Both the position numbers and the translations under genes were made by a program. From assembly GCA_902798815.1 (NCBI GenBank), contig CADBYH010000009.1, positions 1 to 54,719 on the forward strand: a DNA stretch of 54,719 nt, read 5' to 3'. The DNA is from an uncultured Erysipelotrichaceae bacterium. GTDB taxonomy: Bacteria > Bacillota_I > Bacilli_A > RF39 > UBA660. This document shows, piece by piece, positions 44,189 to 45,511 of the stretch. Within the stretch, counting starts at the first letter, position 1. Each line of letters begins with the position of its first letter. Below the pieces are notes generated by a model. The model made no database searches. It had not been told where the DNA came from and worked only from the letters and a program-made list of their open reading frames with translations.

Positions 44189-44309
44189 ACACATTAGCCC
44201 CCATTAGTTGCTAAATTATACCATAAAATGCCTTTTTTGTCAATTTTACAAATAGATTCAATTAAATAAAAAAAAGAGCACTCCATTAAAAAAATACTCT
44301 TTAAAATAA

Positions 44310-45074
44310 TCATTTATTATATATTCTATTTCCAAAAATTTTAGTACCTATTCTTACTATATCTGTTCCTTCTTCTAAAGCAATTTTATAATCATTACTC
44401 ATACCAAGAGATAATAATTTTAAATTATACTTTTCTTTCAAACGATTCATTTCTCTAAATGATTTTCTTATTTTATCTTTATCTTTAGTATTAGGAGCAA
44501 TTGCCATTAATCCTAATAAATTAATATTAGAAAGATTTTTTACTTCATTAACTAAATCGTCTAAATTATCAATACTACAACCTGTCTTATTTATATCTTC
44601 AGCAATATTTACCTCTAATAATATATTTATTACTTTACTATATTTAATTGCCTCTTTATTGATTATATTTGCAAGTTTTATAGAATCAACTGATTGTATT
44701 AAATATATATTTCTTTTTACAACTTCTTTTACTTTGTTAGTTTGTAAATGTCCTATCAAATGCCATTTAATATCATCAGGTAGAGCATCCATTTTACTTA
44801 TTAATTCTTGAACATAATTTTCTCCAAAATCTCTTATTCCTAAATTGTAAGCTTTTAGGATATCTTCATTACTTTTAGTTTTACTTACTGCAACTAATAA
44901 AGTATCACCTATTTCATTTTTTAGATTATCTATTGTTTTTTTCATATATTCATCTTTAATATAATTATCTGGTATTGACTCAATTTCTTCTTCATCTTGT
45001 ATTTCACCCTTATAACCTAAAAAATCATCTAATTGATCTGTCGCAACTAAAAAATTAAAAAAATCATCATTCAT
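44310..45074 (-). CDS. YggS-type pyridoxal-phosphate homeostasis protein with N-terminal extension
   Basis: 254 residues. From residue 44 the sequence is a regular PLPBP/YggS protein: LLVAVSKTKS with the PLP-binding lysine, FGENYVQEL, WHLIGHLQTNK, INILLEVNI, LGLMAIAP, LSLGMSNDYKIALEEGTDIV, RIGTKIFG. The family buffers PLP and affects amino-acid metabolism. The first 43 residues are an acidic extension (FFNFLVATDQLDDFLGYKG) not usual for YggS; the later Met44 has no good ribosome site, whereas GGAGTGA precedes the chosen ATG. It lies 5 bases after the 72-residue gene, in an operon under a SAM-I riboswitch. Confidence 0.9.
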   Translation of the reverse strand: MNDDFFNFLVATDQLDDFLGYKGEIQDEEEIESIPDNYIKDEYMKKTIDNLKNEIGDTLLVAVSKTKSNEDILKAYNLGIRDFGENYVQELISKMDALPDDIKWHLIGHLQTNKVKEVVKRNIYLIQSVDSIKLANIINKEAIKYSKVINILLEVNIAEDINKTGCSIDNLDDLVNEVKNLSNINLLGLMAIAPNTKDKDKIRKSFREMNRLKEKYNLKLLSLGMSNDYKIALEEGTDIVRIGTKIFGNRIYNK

Positions 45075-45079
45075 CAAAA

Positions 45080-45298
45080 TCACTCCATTTCAATAATTCT
45101 TCTTTGTTTAAAAAATCTTGAATAAAACATACAAGCATGAATATTGTTAGAACAGTAAATTAAAAAGTCAATATCTTTATCTTCCATACTTCTTAACGCT
45201 TCTTCTTTTGCTTCACTTGTTTTATACATCTTTTGAAATTTATTTATTACTTTCCATCTTTCTTTAAGCATAAATTCTTGAAATTCTGTAAGTATCAT
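45080..45298 (-). CDS. 72-residue protein under SAM riboswitch control
   Basis: A small soluble, charged and helical protein: LTEFQEFMLKERWKVINKFQ, KTSEAKEEALRSMED, then IDFLIYCSNNIHACMFYSRF and a basic QRRIIEME tail. It has two cysteines and no membrane segment. AAAGGAGG five bases before the ATG gives a strong start. It is the first gene behind the SAM-I riboswitch and is followed after 5 bases by the YggS-like gene. No family is recognised. Control by SAM suggests a part in sulfur amino-acid or PLP metabolism, by inference only. Confidence 0.65.
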   Translation of the reverse strand: MILTEFQEFMLKERWKVINKFQKMYKTSEAKEEALRSMEDKDIDFLIYCSNNIHACMFYSRFFKQRRIIEME

Positions 45299-45329
45299 AA
45301 TAACCTCCTTTCTTATCTTATAAAGGAGT

Positions 45330-45453
45330 TAAAAAAACATCTAGAGTAACTCTAGATGTCTAATCAAAGTTACCTTATAGTTCTAGCATTACCACCTAAC
45401 TTAATAGGTTGGTGAGATTTCTCAGGGCTAGTCCCTCCATCTCTCTTTATAAG
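45330..45453 (-). promoter_or_regulatory. SAM-I (S-box) riboswitch with terminator
   Basis: On the minus strand the aptamer runs from 45453 to 45372. P1 pairs TCTTATA with TATAAGG. The conserved core reads AAGAGAGATGGAGGGACTAG, then CCCTGAGAAATCTC and ACCAACC, followed by AGGTGGTAATGCTAGAAC, as in SAM-I. The terminator is ACATCTAGAG/CTCTAGATGT with loop TTA (45358-45336) and a T tract. GTAACT after P1 (45371-45366) can pair with AGTTAC at the terminator apex to form an antiterminator. High SAM should therefore switch the operon off. Confidence 0.9.
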
Positions 45454-45461
45454 ATATAACT

Positions 45462-45467
45462 GATTAT
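45462..45467 (-). promoter_or_regulatory. Extended -10 promoter of the SAM riboswitch transcript
   Basis: TATAAT (45467-45462) preceded by TGA, an extended -10 element. A weak ATGAAA -35 box lies 16 bases upstream. Transcription would start at about 45455, right at the riboswitch P1 helix. Confidence 0.6.
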
Positions 45468-45511
45468 ATCATAACATTTTAATTTTCATGCCTTTTTTGC
45501 ACAAAAACTTA

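Follow-up and report, generated by a model that had tools for sequence, protein, structure and literature searches.

A SAM-I riboswitch on the minus strand of the 54,719-nucleotide stretch of DNA analysed here (the window), from an uncultured Erysipelotrichaceae bacterium, precedes a 72-aa protein that is a genuine, undescribed member of a SAM regulon, since its linkage to the riboswitch is kept across genera although the neighbouring genes differ. Between 45470 and 44310 (45470..44310), the minus strand carries, in order, an extended -10 promoter, the SAM-I aptamer, an intrinsic terminator, a Shine-Dalgarno site, the 72-aa ORF, and yggS. The reading favoured here, which is considered probable though by a limited measure, is that a transcription-attenuating SAM-I riboswitch controls a small-protein operon whose product would be a SAM-shortage response factor, with yggS as a later addition.

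SAM-I leaders and their expression platform

The leader is preceded by an extended -10 element (TG-A-TATAAT, with TATAAT at 45463..45468 on the minus strand), found by reading the sequence and missed by a two-hexamer promoter scan because a good -35 is absent; the transcript is estimated to start near 45456. A cmscan search of the whole window returned RF00162 (SAM) at 45455..45372 on the minus strand with 65.0 bits (E 6.5e-13; gathering threshold 44.4 bits), the sole Rfam match above gathering threshold in the window. The aptamer comprises P1, P2 with readable kink-turn bases (GGA/UGAA), P3, and the L2/J3-4 pseudoknot (CUAGC/GCUAG). It is called a variant SAM-I because it lacks P4, a helix that is typical of SAM-I yet dispensable for passing the Rfam model, and whose positions are deleted in the RF00162 alignment; P4-less leaders of the same 84-nt form are common in this bacterial family. 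From leader to leader, the two arms of the pseudoknot change together, the window pair corresponding to CCGAC/GUCGG in G208 (L116), and P4-containing leaders show the versions CAGG/CCUG, UAGG/CCUA, and UUGG/CCAA.

The 3′ strand of P1 is also the 5′ arm of the antiterminator (GGUAACU, 45374-45368, minus strand), complementary to AGUUACU at 45351-45345. The terminator scan detected an intrinsic terminator at 45331..45361 on the minus strand, made up of a 12-bp stem (45361..45335) with a 3-nt loop followed by a U-run, where shuffled sequences lead one to expect 0.1, and the folding of the leader as a whole beats that of its own shuffles (z -3.35). The Shine-Dalgarno sequence AGGAGG of the 72-aa gene (site AAGGAGG) lies at 45304..45309, and a probable operon terminator (AAGAGUA..UGCUCUU plus U-run) can be read 3′ of yggS at 44268..44302, both on the minus strand; the terminator scan made no call at the latter position, where the loop is too long for it. 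A first-pass annotation of the window had proposed a SAM-I riboswitch with P1, core, antiterminator, terminator, and extended -10, to be checked with a covariance model, and all of these elements were recovered, the model scoring above threshold. Its description of the SAM-I/YggS unit nevertheless required correction on three counts, namely the absence of P4, an extension of about 45 aa on YggS, and an extra long-range helix.

This helix is formed by the 5′ strand of P1 (45455-45445) and a complementary 11-nt element, CUUUAUAAGAU (45315..45325, minus strand), located downstream of the terminator and immediately before the Shine-Dalgarno site. The two arms covary: among 57 family leaders, the leaders' own duplexes have -8.6 kcal/mol versus -4.7 kcal/mol for permuted ones (z -13.1, matched by 0 of 2000 permutations), and the signal holds at z -10.0 when one leader is kept per distinct 5′ 8-mer (24 leaders). 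It is weaker outside the family, among 20 leaders from elsewhere in the phylum (z -5.5), where the element is absent from many leaders; those that carry it include L147-L151, L154, L160, and L163. Their arms being so similar, the eight SAM-I/small-protein leaders alone give a modest signal (24 of 2000 permutations). In predicted folds of the readthrough RNA, the post-terminator element takes up the P1 5′ strand in seven of these eight, and most of the terminated RNAs are predicted to form P1. No long-range helix was found in the metK leader of the window's own genome (L001).

The helix may serve to lock the ON state, to protect the 5′ end, or to affect translation. In the window leader, CUCCUUU just 5′ of the Shine-Dalgarno sequence can pair with AAAGGAG of the site, and the long-range helix may therefore additionally free the ribosome site, a suggestion that comes from one sequence. 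If true, SAM-I leaders in these bacteria would generally possess a covarying helix that joins the 5′ end of the transcript to the region of the Shine-Dalgarno site. A literature search found no paper on a post-terminator helix; since earlier work is said to have dealt with further conserved pairings in the metK S-box leaders of Bacillus, it is uncertain whether the helix is new.

In the genus and the family, most SAM-I leaders stand before metK genes (380, 340, or 260 aa), and the remainder before small ORFs, DNA methyltransferases, or genes of other kinds. The expectation that SAM-I precedes methionine, cysteine, or SAM-synthesis genes holds here mainly for metK; behind SAM-I in this bacterial family, no gene of methionine or cysteine synthesis was recognised. 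Two SAM-I riboswitches are present in the window genome (a 1.45 Mb draft, 76% complete), and the one outside the window lies before the gene of a short MetK-like protein, about 259 aa long. This protein keeps the HPDK, GDNG, SGATNRK, and GGGLHGKD motifs, scores only 46 bits against TIGR01034, and is missing much of the canonical protein, only its N-domain passing Pfam; it is possibly a minimal methionine adenosyltransferase. Such proteins occur behind P4-less SAM-I at L001 1648-2427 (G000:C6) and L096 3888-4667. Elsewhere, SAM-I stands before C5 cytosine DNA methyltransferases, either directly (L108 3986-6316) or after an 83-aa ORF (L113 1910-3205), and another orphan leader stands before a RecQ-like helicase. 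Small ORFs of three sizes recur after SAM-I, at about 84 aa (L105, L106, L113), 104 aa (L096, L107, L112), and 74 aa (L086, L089, L093, L114), and the members scanned matched no Pfam family; in L106, a transposase-like gene is inserted between SAM-I and the 104-aa ORF.

The 72-aa protein and its linkage to SAM-I

Homologues of the 72-aa protein (45080..45298, minus strand) were sought by sequence alone in 386 + 39 genomes. A single-sequence search gave chance-level matches only in 98 family genomes, and within the genus it identified two homologues, one in G122 (51%) and one in G106 (42%), each behind SAM-I. A profile built from these three sequences recovered six more strong homologues from other genera among the 386 family genomes (E 1e-23 to 1e-32), so that the family, defined here by profile homology together with a SAM-I leader upstream, has nine members of 66-72 aa (G000, G122, G106, G208, G182, G219, G198, G206, and G257). 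SAM-I was located by cmscan just upstream of the homologue in G208, G182, G219, G198, and G206, and over the whole set an intact SAM-I precedes eight of the nine genes, with a remnant of a deleted riboswitch at the ninth (G257). In this remnant leader (L121, about 1390-1500), the aptamer core is deleted and the P1 5′ strand ACATCTTATAAAG is kept, followed about 20 bases later by TTATGAGATGT and then by the Shine-Dalgarno site; the P1 5′ strand and the post-terminator element thus left upstream of the small gene form a hairpin.

An all-against-all comparison of flanking ORFs found no neighbour common to the small-protein loci, which argues that the small protein is linked to the riboswitch and has not merely inherited its surroundings by synteny. 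The earlier suggestion that it may be a new member of the sulfur regulon, for which a search for the protein and its riboswitch association had been proposed, is borne out by this distribution as far as membership of the SAM regulon goes. The family is nonetheless rare and patchy (13 of 386 genomes with any match, 7 of the 13 strong), and its usual neighbours are neither metK nor a recognisable sulfur gene, which together make a core metabolic role doubtful. In one operon, that of G122, the small gene does occur together with metK: SAM-I is followed by a 104-aa ORF, a 66-aa homologue, and a short MetK. Two further sequences (L122 and L123; E 1e-6 and 7e-5) resemble the C-terminal half, lack a riboswitch, and are not counted as members, and matches to ORFs of about 400 aa (G524, G231, G135, and G247) were judged to be chance, these being DegT-type aminotransferases with a short common motif.

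The AlphaFold model, computed from the nine-sequence alignment, is confident and all-helical (pLDDT 91.4, pTM 0.74), with predicted helices at residues 5-24, 28-37, 40-49, 53-60, and 65-71. The protein is taken to be soluble and to represent a new family. Thirteen positions are invariant among the nine sequences (M1, Q7, E13, R14, K20, F21, M38, D42, I43, F45, L46, Y48, and C49), and a clearly basic pI of 8.8-9.8 is found for seven of the nine proteins, the window protein having a pI of 7.8. All 35 computable pairs give dN/dS <1, mostly 0.1 to 0.5, which is indicative of purifying selection. Searches of sequence and fold libraries gave no convincing match from which a function could be taken, and the same holds for Foldseek/VIA-align and for the solved-structure, BFVD, PHROG, and PADLOC searches. 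Two candidates were set aside, namely a restriction-enzyme fragment as a fold relative (Z 3.5, weak, and not counted as evidence) and DUF3944 (PF13099; 12.6 bits against a gathering threshold of 24, over 13 residues only). In three genomes (L086, L089, and L093), a different protein, of 74 aa, takes the place between SAM-I and the short MetK that the homologue has in G122. Its helix order is similar to that of the 72-aa protein, which would hint at a possible kinship, but the hhalign probability is 4.7% and the model is poor (pLDDT 59).

The main rival to the favoured reading assigns the small protein, as effector or helper, to a defence system or a mobile element for which SAM depletion is the trigger, for example by a phage that destroys SAM. 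The patchy distribution and unrelated neighbours agree with this, as do genes that read as type I restriction genes within 10 kb (<=10 kb) of the G208 and G219 homologues, an apparent AbiE-like pair adjoining the G257 homologue, and the other orphan leaders before C5 DNA methyltransferases or a RecQ-like helicase. It is, however, rather unlikely, given that the G122 homologue shares an operon with a short MetK, that no PADLOC model was convincing (two members matched Cas11a with the best E, 0.0035), and that phage, plasmid, and IMG/VR collections contained no relatives.

The yggS gene and its N-terminal module

The gene downstream of the 72-aa ORF (44310..45074, minus strand) had been described as a YggS-type PLP protein, and this identification is secure by TIGR00044 (189.7 bits, cut-off 106.25) and PF01168 (72 bits, cut-off 24). 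The PLP lysine (VSKTK) and the WHLIGHLQTNKVK and IGTKIFG motifs are intact, and the invariant residues are aligned. Two starts are candidates, ATG at 45074, with GGAG inside the upstream gene, and GTG at 45083, with a GTGA overlap. The former is the start with a Shine-Dalgarno sequence and lies a few bases from the stop of the 72-aa gene, and on this basis the two genes are translationally coupled.

The window YggS bears an N-terminal extension of about 45 aa that is foreign to PLPBP. Its first approximately 25 residues form a module, MNDDFFNFLVATDQLDDFLG (45000..45074, minus strand), that is also found on unrelated small proteins, including a DUF7695 protein directly after the G182 homologue, small ORFs beside a gene that is presumably ArdC-like, and a small acidic ORF before what is taken to be a macro-domain-like gene, the last two labels being readings of the sequence. 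The module has a consensus of about LVATDQLDEFLGL (window 45000-45074; L117; L040/L041; L168; and an 82-aa ORF in L173) and sometimes stands alone as an acidic mini-ORF coupled to the next gene. Five other yggS genes seen in the genus have no extension and none is behind SAM-I, one (G130) being divergent beside a SAM-I-metK unit and four elsewhere. The occurrence of the module on unrelated proteins and the lack of an extension on the other yggS genes suggest local recombination, by which yggS appears to have been fused to an older SAM-I/small-protein/module unit in the window genome.

These observations bear on a second alternative, in which YggS/PLPBP is the functional target, low SAM raising PLP buffering for the PLP enzymes of methionine and cysteine synthesis, and the small protein is an accessory. 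The first-pass annotation had likewise tied PLP buffering to SAM level. In favour of this, the genes are coupled and YggS is intact, and yggS is divergent from SAM-I-metK in G130. The tie is weakened by the absence of YggS from eight of the nine small-protein loci, PLPBP standing behind SAM-I in the window genome only, by the position of the other genus yggS genes, and by the recombination that the module suggests, which together make YggS an improbable target. A literature search found no paper joining SAM-I and YggS, and a SAM-PLP link, if there is one, would be specific to the window genome.

Proposed mechanism and relation to known systems

Hardly credible is a third alternative, in which the small protein has no role in SAM biology and is a dispensable passenger, one of the small ORFs acquired by a SAM-I leader prone to recombination, since the three other types of small ORF that follow SAM-I in the family (74, 84, and 104 aa) are outweighed by purifying selection on the small protein and by its near-perfect linkage to SAM-I over several genera. 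Under the favoured reading of a SAM-shortage response operon, the architecture of the expression platform points to transcription attenuation that would be OFF at high SAM, when P1 and the terminator would form and the transcript would stop with no protein made. At low SAM, the P1 3′ strand would join the antiterminator and RNA polymerase would read through, and the freed P1 5′ strand would be captured by the element before the Shine-Dalgarno site, so keeping the message in its ON fold. The constant member of the operon, the 66-72 aa protein, would be produced only under SAM shortage and would probably act in the response to it; a SAM-sparing role, for instance through binding to MetK or to an enzyme that consumes SAM, is a guess. 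The co-translated YggS/PLPBP of the window genome would be a later, local addition. On evidence that does not depend on annotation, the SAM regulon would thereby gain an undescribed protein family, and uncultured bacteria a concrete candidate SAM-shortage response factor.

A broader and more tentative proposal, rather unlikely as it stands, is that SAM-I in this bacterial family has been recruited beyond metabolism and acts as a SAM-shortage alarm that gates orphan proteins of small size, joined in some species by DNA methyltransferases, with the extra helix locking the ON state. If true, capture of the P1 5′ strand would represent a previously unrecognised helix of the expression platform.

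The Fur-regulated proteins FbpA and FbpB of Bacillus are small, mostly basic, and induced by shortage of the regulated metabolite. The present family may resemble them in all three respects, as a functional analogy for which no sequence relation is claimed. The window YggS has every motif of the YggS/PLPBP family (TIGR00044) and its PLP lysine, and differs in its module-bearing extension and its position behind SAM-I. Compared with SAM-I metK leaders of the same bacterial family, the window leader has the same 84-nt aptamer and terminator layout, and the metK leaders often carry the same post-terminator element (AAGATGT..AAAGGAGG), though the window leader is the second SAM-I of its genome and is not before metK. 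With SAM-I (S-box) leaders at large, as modelled by RF00162, it shares the core, the P2 kink-turn bases, the L2/J3-4 pseudoknot, P3, and the terminator/antiterminator platform, and it departs from them in lacking P4, in the extra helix of the P1 5′ strand, and in controlling an orphan small protein; it accordingly belongs to the known SAM-I class, as a form that has lost P4 and gained a covarying helix. SAM-IV is likewise without P4, but possesses P5 together with a second pseudoknot (PMC6890682); for the window aptamer, RF00162 is still the best model.
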